A stretch of 26,168 nt of DNA from a virus. The stretch lies in the IMG/VR virus record IMGVR_UViG_3300020184_000301, positions 1 to 26,168 of that record; one strand, given 5' to 3'. The notes below the pieces were generated by a model. The model worked only from the letters and a program-made list of their open reading frames with translations, was not told the DNA's origin and made no database searches. Both the position numbers and the translations under genes were made by a program. Below are positions 5,265 through 18,995 of the stretch, piece by piece (position 1 is the stretch's first letter; each line of letters opens with the position of its first letter).

Positions 5265-6050
5265 ATGAGAATTATTGCAGGACCGTGTCAACACGAATCG
5301 TTAGAACAATCGCTACACATTGCAAAGAAATGCAAATGGGTATGTGATCAGTATGGCTTTGAATACATCTTCAAGGCTAGCTATGATAAAGCTAATCGCA
5401 CTCATATTGATGGCGAACGAGGTTTAGGCCTCTATCAAACTCTATACGACTTTAAAGAAATGAAAGAGGAAATTCCTGACCTAAAGATTCTTACAGATGT
5501 TCATAGTTGTGATGAAGTATATACTATTGCTGATCACTGGGAGTTTGAAGACGTAGTGGATGTTGTTCAAATTCCAGCTTTCTTGTGTCGTCAGACTGAT
5601 CTTATTCAAGCTGCTGCGAGTCGTTTTAAAATTGTTAATATCAAGAAAGGTCAGTTCCTTGCACCGTGGGATGTGGAAGGCATTTTAAGTAAGACTAAGG
5701 AATTCCGGATTGAGACTTGGATTACAGAGAGAGGTACTAGTTTTGGATATAACAGACTTGTTAATGACTTTGTGGGGATGGCAGGTCTGCTTGATTCCCT
5801 TGGGTCTAATTTTGTTTATGACGTTACCCACTCAGTACAGGAACCTGGGGCCAATGGTAACAGTAGTGGGGGTAATAGGGACGTGGTGCCTGCCCTATCT
5901 CGTGCAGGTGCCGCTCTCGGGGTAAGCAGTTTCTTCCTAGAAGTACATCCAGATCCAGACAACGCACCGTCTGATGGGCCAAACATGGTTTATCTTAACA
6001 AATTTCAAGAGGTAATTGATGACATCGACCGCTATTCTTATCCCCGCTAG
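5265..6050 (+). CDS. kdsA: 3-deoxy-D-manno-octulosonate-8-phosphate synthase
   Basis: KdsA condenses arabinose 5-phosphate and phosphoenolpyruvate to KDO-8-phosphate for the inner core of lipopolysaccharide. Signature segments are AGPCQHES, FKASYDKANR, ILTDVH, VQIPAFLCRQTDL, ERGTSFGYNRLV, YDVTHSVQ and FLEVHPDPDNAPSDGPN. The Cys at residue 8 replaces the Asn of E. coli KdsA, which marks the metal-dependent class; the His, Glu and Asp metal ligands also appear present. It is 261 aa, lacking about 20 N-terminal residues of the E. coli enzyme, as in other short bacterial forms. Its ribosome binding site is weak. Its end overlaps kdsB by 32 bp, so the two form a unit. Confidence 0.93.
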   Translation: MRIIAGPCQHESLEQSLHIAKKCKWVCDQYGFEYIFKASYDKANRTHIDGERGLGLYQTLYDFKEMKEEIPDLKILTDVHSCDEVYTIADHWEFEDVVDVVQIPAFLCRQTDLIQAAASRFKIVNIKKGQFLAPWDVEGILSKTKEFRIETWITERGTSFGYNRLVNDFVGMAGLLDSLGSNFVYDVTHSVQEPGANGNSSGGNRDVVPALSRAGAALGVSSFFLEVHPDPDNAPSDGPNMVYLNKFQEVIDDIDRYSYPR

Positions 6051-6702
6051 ATACGGGTCAACTCGCTTCCCTGGTAAACCACTTACTATGCTAGGTGGCA
6101 AGACTATGATTCAACGAGTAACAGAAACTTGTGTAAGCACTGGTATTGATACCTTTGTATTGACTGATAATAAAACAATTGCTCAAGCAGCAAAAGCTGC
6201 AGGTGCAAAATCTTTTATTGAATCTGTTAGTTACCGAAATGGAACTGAACGTTGTAATGGCGCATTAAAAAGTGAAATGTTTGATGAATATACACATTTT
6301 ATTAATGTACAAGGTGACATGCCTGATGTAACTCCAGAAATGATTCAGCACATCCGTGGACTATTACATGTTTCCTCTGTTTGTACACTATATACTAAAA
6401 TGGATCCAAAATTAAAACTAGATCCGAATACTGTTAAAATGATTCATAATGGAAACAAAGCTCACTGGTTCGGCCGCGGGTTTACTTATGGTGATCATCA
6501 TCTTGGAATCTATGGGTATACCCGTCAGGCTCTACTTGGATATATGAGAACTGAACCTGATGAATATGAACAAATCGAGCAATTAGAACAACTTCGATGG
6601 TATAAAGGGGGTTTACATATCAGCATACATGGTGTAGAATGGAACGGTATCGAAATTAACACACCAGAAGACGTGGAGAAGTGGAATGAAGCACACTTAT
6701 AA
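6019..6702 (+). CDS. kdsB: CMP-KDO synthetase (3-deoxy-manno-octulosonate cytidylyltransferase)
   Basis: KdsB activates KDO with CTP to CMP-KDO, the donor for KDO transferases. The N-terminus has the nucleotidyltransferase signature ILIPARYGSTRFPGKPL. Further family motifs are RNGTERCNGAL, NVQGDMPD (usually QGDEP, so Glu is replaced by Met while the metal-binding Asp is kept), LGIYGYTRQAL, YEQIEQLEQLR and GIEINTPEDVE. The start is ATG 6019, with GAGG 6 nt upstream; TTG 6016 is less likely. At 227 aa it is slightly shorter than the usual 245-250. No KDO transferase or KdsD is seen in the window. Confidence 0.9.
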   Translation: MTSTAILIPARYGSTRFPGKPLTMLGGKTMIQRVTETCVSTGIDTFVLTDNKTIAQAAKAAGAKSFIESVSYRNGTERCNGALKSEMFDEYTHFINVQGDMPDVTPEMIQHIRGLLHVSSVCTLYTKMDPKLKLDPNTVKMIHNGNKAHWFGRGFTYGDHHLGIYGYTRQALLGYMRTEPDEYEQIEQLEQLRWYKGGLHISIHGVEWNGIEINTPEDVEKWNEAHL

Positions 6703-9429: not shown

Positions 9430-10209
9430 GTGAATAGAGTAAGTGGCAGAAATCTAGGTGAAGGTCTGAAAAATCTTAGGTCCCTATTATACAAACAGGG
9501 GTATACCATCCAAACTGGTAGTTGGCAAGGCACCAAAGAACCCCCAACGTTTCTCGAGGTTCTTCACGCCGATCTTGTGGCACCTATGTATAGTGATGTG
9601 AAAAAAGCTTCTGATGAATTAAAAGCGACCCAACCTTGGGCAGACGTACACTTTGACGAACGTACTGGTGGCGAACCACTTAATCCACCCCCATCTCATA
9701 CGATGTGGCTAAAAGATACTGACAAGTATATGTCTGAAGGTCAACAAGCATTTTCTCATTCGTATCCTGAACGTATGTGGGCACCAACTATGGATGGTAT
9801 TCGCTTTAAGACGGGCAATCTTGGTGATGCTGTTGAACTTCTTAAAAGTGATAGTACCACCCGCCAATGCTATGTTCCTATGTGGTTTCCCGAGGATATT
9901 ATAGCTGCGAATCAAGGTGAACGTGTACCATGTTCATTCGGTTGGCACTTCATGGAACGTGGTGGTCAACTACATTGTTCTTATCACATGCGCTCGTGCG
10001 ACGTCGTGCGACACTTGCATAACGATCTTTACTTTGCTAATCGTCTAACTATGTGGATGATTGAAAAAAGTGGCATTAATGCCAAACCAGGGTATTTACA
10101 TTTCAGCTCAACTAGTTTACATTGCTTTGTCAACGACAAGTTTGCTCTTAAGCAGCTTGCGGGTATTAATGACTATGATTGGTCTAACTTTGAAGGAGCT
10201 GCCGTTTAA
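9430..10209 (+). CDS. Thymidylate-synthase-family protein, probable dCMP hydroxymethylase
   Basis: GTG start 9430 with GAGGAG 7 nt upstream; 259 aa. The core of the ThyA fold is visible: catalytic Cys168 in RVPCSFGWHFM, and MRSCDVVRHLHND, which aligns without gaps to QRSCDVFLGLPFN of E. coli ThyA. The residue equivalent to ThyA Asn177 is Asp199. That Asn selects dUMP, while Asp at this place is the hallmark of dCMP hydroxymethylase (T4 gp42). The window also has ThyX, so a second dTMP enzyme would be redundant. I infer synthesis of 5-hydroxymethyl-dCMP and thus modified DNA. His147 of ThyA is Ser here, so activity needs testing. It overlaps asnB (TAATG). Confidence 0.7.
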   Translation: MNRVSGRNLGEGLKNLRSLLYKQGYTIQTGSWQGTKEPPTFLEVLHADLVAPMYSDVKKASDELKATQPWADVHFDERTGGEPLNPPPSHTMWLKDTDKYMSEGQQAFSHSYPERMWAPTMDGIRFKTGNLGDAVELLKSDSTTRQCYVPMWFPEDIIAANQGERVPCSFGWHFMERGGQLHCSYHMRSCDVVRHLHNDLYFANRLTMWMIEKSGINAKPGYLHFSSTSLHCFVNDKFALKQLAGINDYDWSNFEGAAV

Positions 10210-11522
10210 TGTGTGGATTTGTTGCCTGTTCTAATTCAAATGTGGATCTAGAACAGATCATAGAAAAGATATCTTATCGTGGATTACCAGGGTATAAAGG
10301 TTATAAGTTATACGATACCCTTTGGCCAAAAGGTGTGAAAATGGCACATTACAGTTTGCCGTTTGTAAATCTCGACCCTGATATCGCTATTCAACCTAGT
10401 GAAAACTCGACCTCGTTGTTTGTTGGAGAGATCTTCAATTATAAAGAACTTGGCTTCCAAAATGATATCGAGTGTGCTTGGAAAACGTTTTGGTTCGGTG
10501 AAGGTATTCGTGGCTTTCGAAAGTTCGATGGGTTCTTTACCTTTGTCACTATCTTAAAAGGTAAACTATTCGGCGTCACAGATCATCTCGGAATCAAACC
10601 CCTTTACTATCGAACTGATGTTGATGCAATGGCATCTGAGCCTGATGTTCTGAAAGAGTTTGGTGAGGTTACCCGTAATGAACTCTTTCATTCAAACGTT
10701 ATGAAGTGGGGTTATGATCCAACCGGTGGTACTCCGTGGAATGAGATTAAACAGCTACCCCCAGGATGCACTGTTAGTGATGGTATCGTGAGAAAGTACT
10801 GGGATTGGAGTATGACTCCGACTAGTGACCTACGCACAGACCTAATCGAATCTGTCCGACGTAGGCTTGGCGGTCAGCGTGACCTTTCAATCCTATTATC
10901 CGGTGGGCTCGATTCAACCATTGTATATAAGATCATTACAGAAATACTCGGTCGCGAAGTGACGGCTATTCACGTTGACAACGGAGAAGAAGACTATGCG
11001 AAATTGGTTGCGGAAGATATGGTTGAGGTTAAACTGGAAGGAGTTACTGACGTGGACAGTGTGCGTATTCATCAGTCTCCTGTGGATCTGGGTAGCACGA
11101 AACCCCAGATAGCAATGGCCCGTAAGCTCAAAGAGCTTGGCTTCCATGCAGTACTAACTGGTGACGGTGCAGATGAACTCTTTGGTGGTTATCGTCGGGC
11201 AAAGGAGTATGATAGTCAAGCATCTGACGTTTGGTGTGAGTTACCATACTATCACCTTCCAAAGCTGGATCGTACAATGATGTATAGCACTATTGAGCTT
11301 AGATCTCCATTCCTATCACCTAGCATCGTCAGGCACGCTCTTTCCACGCCCTACGATCAACGTAATGGAGAAAAAAAGGTTCTAAAAGAAGCTTTCAAAG
11401 ATGTTGTCCCACAAAAGATTTTAATGAGAGACAAGCATCCCTTAAAGACCGAAACTATTCGTACCGATCCTATGCAGCAGCGGATCATTAACGAAAACAT
11501 CTGGAGAGAGCTATATGGATAA
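10209..11522 (+). CDS. asnB: Glutamine-dependent asparagine synthetase homologue
   Basis: N-terminal class II glutamine amidotransferase domain starting MCGFVA, which gives the catalytic Cys after Met removal. The C-terminal ATP-pyrophosphatase domain has the PP-loop LLSGGLDSTIV, then TGDGADELFGGYRRA and STIELRSPFL. At 437 aa it is shorter than E. coli AsnB (554). By eye alignment the glutamine pocket is altered: AHYSLPF stands for AHERLSI (Arg49 to Ser) and VGEIFNY for NGEIYNH (Asn74 to Val), while the Asp98 equivalent (ND-IE) is kept. It could be ammonia-using or act on another carboxyl acceptor. It is coupled to the ThyA-like gene and overlaps the deaminase by 8 bp. Confidence 0.85.
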   Translation: MCGFVACSNSNVDLEQIIEKISYRGLPGYKGYKLYDTLWPKGVKMAHYSLPFVNLDPDIAIQPSENSTSLFVGEIFNYKELGFQNDIECAWKTFWFGEGIRGFRKFDGFFTFVTILKGKLFGVTDHLGIKPLYYRTDVDAMASEPDVLKEFGEVTRNELFHSNVMKWGYDPTGGTPWNEIKQLPPGCTVSDGIVRKYWDWSMTPTSDLRTDLIESVRRRLGGQRDLSILLSGGLDSTIVYKIITEILGREVTAIHVDNGEEDYAKLVAEDMVEVKLEGVTDVDSVRIHQSPVDLGSTKPQIAMARKLKELGFHAVLTGDGADELFGGYRRAKEYDSQASDVWCELPYYHLPKLDRTMMYSTIELRSPFLSPSIVRHALSTPYDQRNGEKKVLKEAFKDVVPQKILMRDKHPLKTETIRTDPMQQRIINENIWRELYG

Positions 11523-11952
11523 GTGGGATAAACGATATATAGAGCTGGCCCAACTAGTTTCTACCTGGTCGAAAGATCCTTCGAGTAAGATCGGCGCAGT
11601 AGCAGTTGGAGGAAAGGGTGAGGTTCTTTCCACCGGGTATAACGGATTTCCAAGAGGTATTCTTGATCGGAAGCGGAGGCTAGACGATCGAGAGGTTAAG
11701 TATGATCTGATTGTTCATGCAGAAATGAATGCTATATTTAATGCAACATATAACGGCGTATCCCTTAATGGATCTACTGTATATGTTGCGGGTTTGCCTT
11801 GTTGCCATAAGTGTGCACTCGGACTTATACAGGTTGGGGTAAAACGAGTGGTTATGGATGGAGATCCGAATTCCGATCGATGGAAAGAATCGTGGAATAA
11901 ATCCGCCGCGCTTTTTAAAGAAGCCGGTATAGAATGGGAATTTACTGAATGA
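11515..11952 (+). CDS. dCMP deaminase
   Basis: Converts dCMP to dUMP, feeding ThyX. The zinc site is clear: HAEMNAI (His68, Glu70) and LPCCHKCA (Cys97, Cys100). The N-terminal part WDKRYIELAQLVSTWSKDPS, then SKIGAV, is typical of phage and ComEB-type dCMP deaminases. It is 145 aa, somewhat shorter than T4 Cd (193). It overlaps asnB by 8 bp and ugd by 4 bp (ATGA), so it is in the same operon. Confidence 0.93.
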   Translation: MDKWDKRYIELAQLVSTWSKDPSSKIGAVAVGGKGEVLSTGYNGFPRGILDRKRRLDDREVKYDLIVHAEMNAIFNATYNGVSLNGSTVYVAGLPCCHKCALGLIQVGVKRVVMDGDPNSDRWKESWNKSAALFKEAGIEWEFTE

Positions 11953-12779
11953 AAAGAATCGCAATTATTGGTCATGGCTTTGTCGGTAAAGCTGTTGACT
12001 ATGGATTTACGAACGATCAAGTCGAAAAGGTTATTATTGATCCAATCTACGGTACAACTATTGAAAAAGATTTGGGGGATCCAAATTCTTATAATTTCAT
12101 TTTCGTGTGCGTGCCTACGCCTATGAAAGATGATGGCGCAATTGATCGAGGTATCATTGATTCTGTTATGAAGTTTGTAACACGAGGTATTTTATTTACA
12201 ACAACAAATATCGTTATTAAGTCCACTATTACTCCTGACATTGCCGAAGATTACGAAAATGATCTCGTAGTATATAATCCGGAATTTTTAACTGAAGCAT
12301 CTGCAAAACAGGACTTTGTACATCCTGAATTTCATGTCTTTGGCGGACACCCAGAAATGTGTTATCGATTAAAAAGCTTTTATGATGAATATAGCCTATG
12401 TGATGATGTGCCGGTGTACGTAATGAGTATGGCCGAGGCTTCATTCGTTAAGTATGCTATTAATTCGTTTCTATCTACAAAGATCACATTTTTCAATCAA
12501 TTGTATGATGCAGTAAAGGATACGTCTGCAAACTATACTAAGATTATGAAGGCGGTTAGTGCTGATCCTCGTATCGGTTCTTCTCATACGAAGGTACCAG
12601 GATTTGACGGCAAACAAGGATATGGGGGAGCATGTTTCCCAAAGGACACAAATGCTCTAATTAATTACAGTAAAAGATTTACATTGGTGGAAGAATGTGT
12701 TAGAATTAACAGTGCATACCGGAGCCAATATGAATTAGACGAAAGGGAAAAGGAACAAAATGTCAAGTATAATGGATAA
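11949..12779 (+). CDS. UDP-glucose/GDP-mannose dehydrogenase family protein, C-terminal domain missing
   Basis: Oxidises a nucleotide sugar to its uronic acid with NAD. The Rossmann motif is IAIIGHGFVGKAVDYG. Further family motifs are FVCVPTP, VVYNPEFLTEASA, Lys168 and Asn172 in VKYAINSFLS, and the catalytic Cys229 in GYGGACFPKD. Normal members are 390-450 aa with a second nucleotide-binding domain after this point; this one stops at 276 aa. No remnant of the missing domain is seen downstream because uvsX starts inside its 3' end. It probably is a naturally short form. The sugar substrate is unknown. Confidence 0.85.
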   Translation: MKRIAIIGHGFVGKAVDYGFTNDQVEKVIIDPIYGTTIEKDLGDPNSYNFIFVCVPTPMKDDGAIDRGIIDSVMKFVTRGILFTTTNIVIKSTITPDIAEDYENDLVVYNPEFLTEASAKQDFVHPEFHVFGGHPEMCYRLKSFYDEYSLCDDVPVYVMSMAEASFVKYAINSFLSTKITFFNQLYDAVKDTSANYTKIMKAVSADPRIGSSHTKVPGFDGKQGYGGACFPKDTNALINYSKRFTLVEECVRINSAYRSQYELDEREKEQNVKYNG

Positions 12780-16620: not shown

Positions 16621-16825
16621 AAAACTATCTACACATTTGTCCTCGGACAAAGGACACTGTGAAATCCACGTAGACTATAGGGAAGAAATGTTCTACATCA
16701 GATATTTTGATGATCAAGGCCGGCTATTCTTCACTGAAGACTTCCCGAATAAATCTATGAGATATGTAGAAGATGCAGCAGAGAATTGGGCACTGGGGAT
16801 AAAAAAATTAGAAGAAATTGAATAA
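16613..16825 (+). CDS. Hypothetical protein (70 aa)
   Basis: ATG 16613 overlaps the thyX stop. GGAG lies about 10 nt upstream. Small alpha/beta protein with FYIRYFDDQGRLFFTEDF and a C-terminal helix. Function unknown. It is the last gene of the operon that begins at 9430, and a GTTTACA element follows. Confidence 0.68.
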   Translation: MGKKLSTHLSSDKGHCEIHVDYREEMFYIRYFDDQGRLFFTEDFPNKSMRYVEDAAENWALGIKKLEEIE

Positions 16826-18181: not shown

Positions 18182-18212
18182 TGTCACATCAAAAAGAAAC
18201 TAAAGTAAAGAG

Positions 18213-18241
18213 TTTACAAATATTGAATAATATGATATAAG
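18213..18241 (+). promoter_or_regulatory. Promoter of the permuted tmRNA gene
   Basis: AGTTTACA with TTTACA at 18213-18218, 17-bp spacer, TATAAG (18236-18241). Transcription is expected near 18248, which coincides with the presumed 5' end of the acceptor piece. Confidence 0.75.
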
Positions 18242-18247
18242 TAGCTT

Positions 18248-18309
18248 GTTAACGTTGAAACGGCGTGGACACATTCTGGACCTGGGGGCGGTACCCAGCG
18301 ACTCCACCA
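18248..18309 (+). ncRNA. tmRNA acceptor piece (tRNA-like 3' half)
   Basis: About 62 nt, ending CGACTCC-A-CCA. T stem CTGGG/CCCAG encloses the loop GGCGGTA, which is not the usual TTCGA-type loop; I recall such loops from alphaproteobacterial tmRNAs. ACAC-ATT-CTG (about 18269-18278) can pair with CAG-GTGT of the coding piece (about 18458-18464) as part of helix P2, with ATT bulged. Confidence 0.85.
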
Positions 18310-18327
18310 AAAGAGAAAAATGAAACT

Positions 18328-18438
18328 ATGAACGACTTTGAACAGTTTCCACCAATCGAAGGCAATAACACAAGTATTGCATGGCCTATGATTATTATTG
18401 GAATGATAGTCGTTTCTGTATTAATTTTCCTTTTTTGA
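18328..18438 (+). CDS. 36-aa predicted membrane peptide in the tmRNA spacer
   Basis: ATG 18328 to TGA 18436-18438 lies wholly between the acceptor piece (ends 18309) and coding piece (starts 18440). The peptide has a short polar N-terminus (MNDFEQFPPIEGNNTSIAWP) and one strong transmembrane helix (MIIIGMIVVSVLIFLF) that reaches the C-terminus. An earlier ATG (18320) stops at once. The ribosome binding site is weak (AAAGAGAAAA). No homologue comes to mind. The spacer is normally removed during tmRNA maturation, so translation would have to use precursor RNA. Small size leaves a real chance that it is fortuitous. Confidence 0.5.
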   Translation: MNDFEQFPPIEGNNTSIAWPMIIIGMIVVSVLIFLF

Positions 18439-18439
18439 T

Positions 18440-18606
18440 GGGGTCGAAATAGGATCGACAGGTGTGAAGATAAAGTGGAGTTAACCGGCTGATCGCGTAT
18501 AGATCAATTCAACTAAATGCAAACGATAACTTTGCTCCTAAGGGTTACGCTCTAGCAGCCTAACTACTGTGGGTATGGGTTCCACCTAGAAACAGAACGG
18601 ACCCAA
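18440..18606 (+). ncRNA. tmRNA coding piece
   Basis: Begins with GGGGTCG (acceptor-stem 5' strand). It is about 165 nt, short for a coding piece. GTTAAC (18480-18485) is complementary to GTTAAC at the 5' end of the acceptor piece (18248-18253), a possible contact. Downstream of the tag stop, GTTCCAC and CAGAAC form hairpin candidates. The 3' end is not defined by a clear signal. Confidence 0.8.
18519..18563 (+). other. tmRNA tag reading frame
   Basis: GCA resume codon at 18519, then 14 codons encoding ANDNFAPKGYALAA, and TAA at 18561-18563. The ending ALAA is the proteolysis signal read by ClpXP-type proteases in bacteria, and AND is a common tag beginning. Confidence 0.92.
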
Positions 18607-18635
18607 CTATTGTAAACATAAAAGGAAATCTAATA

Positions 18636-18995
18636 ATGAAAACTCTTGCTCTCGCTACTGCTTTCGTCGCTGCTGCTGGTGCAGCTTCTGCTTTTGAACT
18701 AGGCACAACTGGTGTTGCTATCGGCGCAACCATGGATGCCAACTACACTACTGGTGCGAATGAATTCGCAATTGACTTTACTCCTGCTGCTACTTTCAGC
18801 AACTGGGGTATCGACTTTTCGGCTTCAACCACATTTGATGTGATGGGTCTAAACAACGGTGACATCTTCCAAGGTCTAGACCTTGACGCAGGTTACACCA
18901 TTGGTAATACCGGACTACGTGCATACGGTACTGTTGGTACTGACGCCGACTTTAACTTCGGCGATTTTAAAATGGGTGTTACATTCTCATTCTAA
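18636..18995 (+). CDS. Small exported beta-barrel-like outer membrane protein
   Basis: 119 aa. The N-terminus MKTLALATAFVAAAGAASA is a clear signal peptide, cleaved before FELG. The mature part alternates polar and nonpolar residues in repeated strands (ATFSNWGIDFSASTTFDV, YTIGNTGLRAYGTVG) and ends FKMGVTFSF, a C-terminal aromatic beta-signal typical of outer membrane proteins. About 100 residues could form a small 8-stranded barrel. AAGGAAAT precedes ATG 18636. It lies 30 bp after the tmRNA and may be cotranscribed. A surface change that blocks superinfection is one possible role, an inference. Confidence 0.75.
   Translation: MKTLALATAFVAAAGAASAFELGTTGVAIGATMDANYTTGANEFAIDFTPAATFSNWGIDFSASTTFDVMGLNNGDIFQGLDLDAGYTIGNTGLRAYGTVGTDADFNFGDFKMGVTFSF

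Follow-up and report, generated by a model that had tools for sequence, protein, structure and literature searches.

A 26,168-nucleotide stretch of viral DNA, analyzed here at its full length and referred to below as the window (IMG/VR record IMGVR_UViG_3300020184_000301), had been predicted from its sequence to encode a circularly permuted tmRNA at positions 18248 to 18606. The locus raises the question of whether this RNA is complete and what occupies the 130 nt between its two pieces. In two-piece tmRNA, such an intervening segment (IVS) has hitherto been regarded as a spacer that is thrown away; the phage segments instead resemble a cargo site that harbors hidden genes.

A two-piece tmRNA of the alphaproteobacterial type

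Both halves of the tmRNA are present. The alpha_tmRNA covariance model (RF01849), proposed as a check in the original prediction, matched positions 18209 to 18608 over its full model length (116 bits against a gathering threshold of 50; E = 2.5e-31), and the tmRNA_permuted model (RF04321) matched positions 18248 to 18563 (111.9 bits against a threshold of 47). RF01849 gave the top score within its clan at this locus, where one overlapping, weaker match from the same clan was omitted, and ARAGORN independently reported a permuted tmRNA with the tag ANDNFAPKGYALAA. The acceptor stem, G-U pair, encoded CCA, T arm, and tag followed by TAA that had been read from the letters could all be located, as follows.

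18213..18241, + strand: predicted sigma70-like promoter, TTTACA, 17 nt, TATAAG (sequence; counterpart in relatives)
18248..18309, + strand: acceptor piece (RF01849, RF04321; 5' end approximate)
18282-18298, + strand: T arm, within the acceptor piece (sequence)
18299-18305, + strand: 3' strand of the acceptor stem, CGACTCC (sequence)
18306, + strand: discriminator A (sequence)
18307-18309, + strand: encoded CCA (sequence)
18310..18439, + strand: IVS, 130 nt, apparently an exchangeable cassette (ends pair, 11-bp extension of the acceptor helix)
18328..18438, + strand: predicted small protein gene in the IVS, MNDFEQFPPIEGNNTSIAWPMIIIGMIVVSVLIFLF (conserved ORF, free-standing copies)
18440..18606, + strand: coding piece, comprising the acceptor 5' strand, the mRNA-like part, and the 3' part (RF01849 to 18608; 3' end approximate)
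18440-18446, + strand: 5' strand of the acceptor stem, GGGGTCG (sequence)
18519..18563, + strand: tag reading frame, ANDNFAPKGYALAA plus TAA (codons 18519-18560, TAA 18561-18563; Rfam, ARAGORN)
18636..18995, + strand: next gene, encoding a 119-aa protein judged by eye to be secreted and outer-membrane-like (ORF listing)

With the acceptor piece upstream of the coding piece, an acceptor stem of 7 pairs (GGGGTCG with CGACTCC, including G3:U70), the CCA, and a tag frame with its own stop codon, and with the alpha model as the best-scoring clade model, the locus is confirmed as a circularly permuted two-piece tmRNA of the alphaproteobacterial type. No other credible Rfam match was found in the whole window; a match to snR76 at 16765 (24 bits against a gathering threshold of 55) was dismissed as chance. 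A group I intron-containing tmRNA was likewise rejected, as no intron family matched anywhere in the window up to E = 1 and the interruption sits at the CCA/GGGG junction, not in the T-loop.

The claim that the tmRNA gene has its own promoter agrees with the putative boxes TTTACA (18213-18218) and TATAAG (18236-18241), which would place the transcription start near 18248, at the acceptor piece. They were passed over by a strict automatic promoter scan, which requires T as the last -10 base; TTGACA-17-TATAAA stands at the equivalent place in locus L198 and in other diverged relatives. No terminator was called between 18563 and the next gene at 18636.

The intervening segment contains a conserved small gene

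An ORF of 36 codons (18328 to 18438), overlooked in the original prediction, nearly fills the 130-nt segment between CCA18309 and G18440, and its TGA stop codon ends 1 nt upstream of the mature 5' end (G18440). The description of the tmRNA as compact thus applies to the RNA pieces but not to the IVS, which is long and gene bearing. The predicted product, MNDFEQFPPIEGNNTSIAWPMIIIGMIVVSVLIFLF, has an acidic N terminus and, toward the C terminus, a single transmembrane-like stretch. By its length alone the ORF is weakly supported, since such a length was reached by 2.9% of shuffled segments when only ATG starts were allowed and by 6.2% with any start, and its ribosome-binding site is weak, consisting of a GAG far upstream of the ATG.

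Stronger evidence came from a search of viral contigs with a degenerate FPPIEGN pattern, which revealed a free-standing gene in L486 and L487 that encodes the same protein, with Trp19 replaced by Cys, outside any tmRNA and with a purine-rich GGGGG preceding the start. More diverged free-standing homologues, all outside tmRNA, were found in L497, L494, and L485/L488-490; those of L497, L494, and L485 retain the QFPPIEGN motif and the hydrophobic tail, with pN/pS values relative to the window of 0.28, 0.32, and 0.47, respectively. Among five near copies (the window, L346, L198, L486, and L487), all six variable sites fall at third codon positions, for which the chance is (1/3)^6 = 0.0014, and five of the six changes are synonymous. 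Purifying selection at the codon level and independent occurrence mark this ORF as protein coding and argue strongly for a real gene; an accidental ORF was rejected on the basis of the conservation and the free-standing copies. The protein matched no described family in PHROGs at E ≤ 0.05 (best, 0.068), and tblastn of the ORF against phage records gave a chance-level match only (E = 5). As a guess, it might be a small membrane protein that acts on the host envelope.

The free-standing copy in L487 (14036-14210) lies between 39-nt direct repeats of 92% identity, one of which forms the end of the upstream gene. These repeats are possibly the scar of an insertion or duplication; no relative with an empty site was found in phage records.

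Viral intervening segments are long, and some contain genes

Permuted tmRNA loci were located with one acceptor/D-loop pattern, and among the matches listed the IVS was resolved in 311 viral and 106 bacterial loci, with the left end (CCA) defined by requiring acceptor and T-arm pairing; further scans enlarged the viral set, and two of these demanded TGAT ahead of GGGG. Among the matches listed, which for viruses are metagenomic fragments from pattern sampling, distinct viral IVSs had a median length of 92.5 nt, and 117 of 248 reached at least 95 nt, compared with a median of 29 nt in bacteria and 2 of 106 at or above 95 nt. The viral median was 85.5 nt in the first, less selected sample. As a bacterial control independent of the pattern, RF04321 was run against 142 alphaproteobacterial genomes; 131 scored above the cutoff, and 6 of 130 full-length spans measured at least 290 nt. 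The resolved IVSs of these six long spans held repeats or hairpins instead of a convincing ORF.

In viral IVSs of at least 150 nt, one ORF covers 75% of the segment, against 40% in dinucleotide shuffles, and 62% are individually significant (p ≤ 0.05). Viral IVSs of 60 to 95 nt showed no excess of ORFs over shuffles, and many have none; the cargo would therefore be optional. Several mutually unrelated IVS gene families are under purifying selection: six family alignments gave pN/pS values of 0.20, 0.18, 0.26, 0.14, 0.10, and 0.24, which are sums over pairs and phylogenetically nonindependent, several smaller families being uninformative. A transmembrane-like stretch is present in 33 of the 74 IVS ORFs of at least 30 aa, and 43 of the 74 show a Shine-Dalgarno-like motif within 16 nt. 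In the cultured phage Melnitz, the annotated gene that directly precedes ssrA is 69% identical to IVS family F2 (62 aa). Among 80 F2 loci fetched, 31 are located inside a tmRNA and 23 lie upstream of one, 13 of these nearby and the other 10 at a distance of about 450 to 550 nt; the rest are free or at contig ends.

Melnitz itself has a 142-nt IVS holding an ORF that is missing from its annotation (MFKWLSKTRL...IPKYLSGT; MZ577095.1, L477 567-708), and relatives bearing a comparable YLSG/YLG motif occur in L066, L105, L431, L433, L023, and L422. No convincing gene was found in the 98- to 106-nt IVSs of the cultured roseophages MD18, DSS3_MAL1, and DSS3P8. Sinorhizobium phage Phosso (L478) has an unannotated permuted tmRNA with a 410-nt IVS and no convincing ORF, possibly a structured RNA or decayed cargo. 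In Rhodobacter phage RcRudolph (L482 529-864), an annotated hypothetical protein overlaps an apparent tmRNA acceptor piece and is possibly a misannotation.

Intervening segments are exchanged as units

Judging from sequence comparisons, the IVS is exchanged between phages as a unit, leaving the mature RNA untouched. L172 is 99.5% identical to the window over 3,952 nt up to position 18312 and 99.9% identical over 701 nt from 18433, and between these stretches it has an unrelated, gene-free IVS of 72 nt. Conversely, L198 carries the window IVS (96%) within a tmRNA that has another tag and other flanks. Overall, 52 pairs of loci had similar flanks without detectable IVS similarity and 78 had similar IVSs without a similar upstream flank; these pairs overlap and are not independent, and IVSs of about 11 nt are too short for alignment. 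The sharpest case is the L028/L184 pair, in which the IVSs are identical at 264 of 266 bases (99%), the mature sides are both 56% alike, and identity switches no more than 8 nt from the left mature end and no more than 4 nt from the right. Because the acceptor stems of this pair differ by a compensatory change (G-C versus T-A), selection to maintain pairing could by itself hold the breakpoints at the ends.

Gene-free cassettes appear to travel as well: L129, L178, L188, L199, L209, and L216, which differ in tags and flanks, share an identical IVS of 105 nt that holds no convincing gene. The occurrence of 99 to 100% identical IVSs in tmRNAs with different tags and flanks is the mark of recent transfer expected of a mobile element; the terminal arms of the IVSs are inverted but variable among cassettes. 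While chimeric metagenomic assembly could mimic one swap, it could hardly produce the repeated pattern across samples.

Terminal helix and reading frames beyond the cleavage site

The ends of the window IVS form 11 pairs that continue the 7-pair acceptor stem. Among the matches listed, at least six such pairs were found in 97 to 99% of viral IVSs of at least 60 nt; since IVS ends extend the acceptor helix in 85% of bacterial IVSs as well, the helix is not phage specific. Among the matches listed, 81% of viral IVSs have TGAT as their last four bases, as do 21% of bacterial ones, the viral figure being inflated by the two scans that required TGAT, although a scan without this demand returned at least 120 loci, most of which were recovered again with it. 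The terminal UGAU is able to pair with ACCA and contains a stop codon in one frame. According to PMC9433436, RNase P binding is inhibited when the leader pairs with the 3' RCCA, so tmRNA processing may be slow enough for the precursor to be translated.

In 28 of the 74 IVS ORFs, including the conserved family F5 (pN/pS, 0.24), the frame runs past the 5' cleavage site of the tmRNA, such that processing would create a nonstop message, itself a substrate for tmRNA. Conserved ORF families lacking a stop codon before the cleavage site include L019, L095, L099, L100, L102, L415, and L451, as well as L018/L101, L105/L431, and Melnitz (L477); such frames terminate inside the mature RNA, often in ...MGAK*. 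We tentatively entertain the doubtful possibility that split tmRNA genes serve as a dedicated landing site for mobile mini-gene cassettes and that the precursor is a dual RNA, with tRNA-type processing freeing a small-protein mRNA; in stop-less families, the resulting nonstop messages would be tagged by the phage tmRNA, coupling the product to tmRNA maturation.

Proposed function and alternative explanations

Together, these observations probably describe a phage two-piece tmRNA of the working type, with a precursor that also serves as an mRNA and an IVS that is an exchangeable cargo site. A single transcript starting near 18248 would fold by pairing of the two pieces at the acceptor stem, a helix that the ends of the IVS would lengthen. 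Cleavage by RNase P at U18439|G18440, together with maturation of the 3' end behind CCA18309, would then yield two pieces that could act with host SmpB and alanyl-tRNA synthetase to free stalled ribosomes and mark proteins for degradation. The small membrane protein might be translated either from the precursor or, once it has been excised, from the IVS RNA. Cassettes, consisting of a helix alone or a helix plus a small gene, would be replaced whole; the most likely route is homologous recombination through the conserved tmRNA blocks that adjoin the IVS on both sides.

It is very improbable that the IVS is a mere spacer with an accidental frame in an ordinary permuted tmRNA. Many viral IVSs, including the 72-nt segment of L172, indeed lack an ORF, and the window ORF is matched in length by 3 to 6% of shuffled IVSs, but a spacer would not account for a free-standing gene elsewhere that encodes the same protein, for the confinement of all substitutions to third codon positions, or for purifying selection on several other IVS gene families. 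Even less credible is a recently captured, nonfunctional fragment of host ssrA. Although ssrA is often an integration site and fragments of it are found in prophages (PMC9004378), here both pieces are complete and have their own predicted promoter, the RNA is conserved in relatives of diverged sequence and tag, and the surrounding gene set is that of a lytic, T4-like phage.

The manner of exchange and the purpose of the RNA leave more room for alternatives. The cassettes might be true mobile elements, with homing, a site-specific enzyme, or another dedicated mechanism inserting them at the CCA/GGGG junction in place of ordinary recombination. The sharp change in identity at the mature ends of L028/L184 (flanks just 56% alike), the identical 105-nt IVS in diverged tmRNAs, the 39-nt direct repeat (92%) around a free-standing copy, and the frequent TAA... 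and ...TGAT ends with inverted arms of about 10 bp (4 in shuffles) could all be read in this way. We nevertheless consider such elements unlikely, as the arms vary by cassette and are explained as the acceptor-helix extension common to bacteria, and the conserved tmRNA blocks suffice for homologous exchange, with selection on the mature RNA keeping the breakpoints at its ends. It is also distinctly unlikely that host protein degradation or competition with host tmRNA, and not ribosome rescue for the phage, is the main role of the phage tmRNA. Degradation of host proteins has been proposed for Melnitz (PMC9004378), and the tmRNA of phage DS6A, which has only the tRNA-like domain, resembles tmRNA-inhibiting molecules (PMC4131195, PMC11915505). 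However, the window tmRNA has a complete tag ending in ALAA, as many host tags do, and mature parts conserved as in a working rescue RNA; moreover, this alternative concerns purpose and leaves the anatomy unaffected. As originally suggested, the RNA may give the phage control of ribosome rescue or proteolysis.

Relation to known systems

Phage-encoded two-piece tmRNA has already been published, so the RNA itself is known: PMC9004378 counts 53 such structures in phages, with marine or aquatic ones accounting for 50, and suggests that phage tmRNA acts early and serves in rescue and amino acid recycling. Together with at least 120 viral permuted tmRNA loci in IMG/VR in each of four pattern scans, this makes the original description of the RNA as unusual in a T4-like phage an overstatement. 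The new part of the finding is the gene-carrying, cassette-swapping IVS. In open PMC full text, we found no reports of IVS protein genes, and the available part of PMC9004378, which covers tmRNA and a riboswitch, contained no IVS gene or cassette exchange.

The nearest counterparts are the methylophage Melnitz, a T4-like marine phage with a two-piece tmRNA behind an early promoter, and other marine myophages (PMC9004378), which share with the window an alpha-type permuted tmRNA, the early promoter, and the lack of SmpB. Melnitz also has an ORF in its 142-nt IVS, although the IVS gene family differs. The permuted tmRNA of alphaproteobacteria (RF01849; Caulobacter) corresponds in anatomy, Rfam models, encoded CCA, G3:U70, tag type, and IVS-end helix but has an IVS of about 29 nt and no genes. 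Group I intron tmRNAs, some with a homing endonuclease gene, similarly have a protein gene inside the tmRNA gene, but there the interruption is a self-splicing intron in the T-loop region, whereas that of the window is a removable segment of the permuted form without a match to an intron model (PMC11915505). A permuted tmRNA with a tRNA-Ala in its IVS likewise has functional IVS content, but this is a tRNA in a single, nominally archaeal genome and not a protein gene in a phage (PMC11915505).

IVS genes are skipped by annotation because the whole span is labeled tmRNA, as in cultured Melnitz. IVS ORFs thus offer a ready set of unannotated small phage proteins and a new place to seek host takeover genes. 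They would also present a natural case of a noncoding RNA gene and a protein gene on one transcript, in which processing could regulate both.

Phage and host

The record, a virus fragment of 26,168 bp, carries T4-type replication genes. The window encodes a T4-type DNA polymerase (48% to Phage C48C1, Kyanoviridae) as well as UvsX, a DnaB-type helicase, and ThyX (Pfam), consistent with the assignment to a T4-like phage. As noted originally, smpB is absent from the window; neither a 157-kb relative nor Melnitz was found to encode SmpB. The 25 commonest tags among the resolved bacterial loci do not include that of the window. The proposed alphaproteobacterial host is likely, but an alpha-type tmRNA is insufficient to establish it, since Melnitz, whose laboratory host is OM43 strain H5P1, has one and yet infects a gammaproteobacterium. 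Elsewhere in the window (5265-6702 and 10209-12779), Pfam matches identified kdsA-like (DAHP/KDO8P synthase family) and kdsB-like (cytidylyltransferase) genes for sugar-acid activation, with asparagine synthase and UDP-glucose dehydrogenase-like genes nearby.
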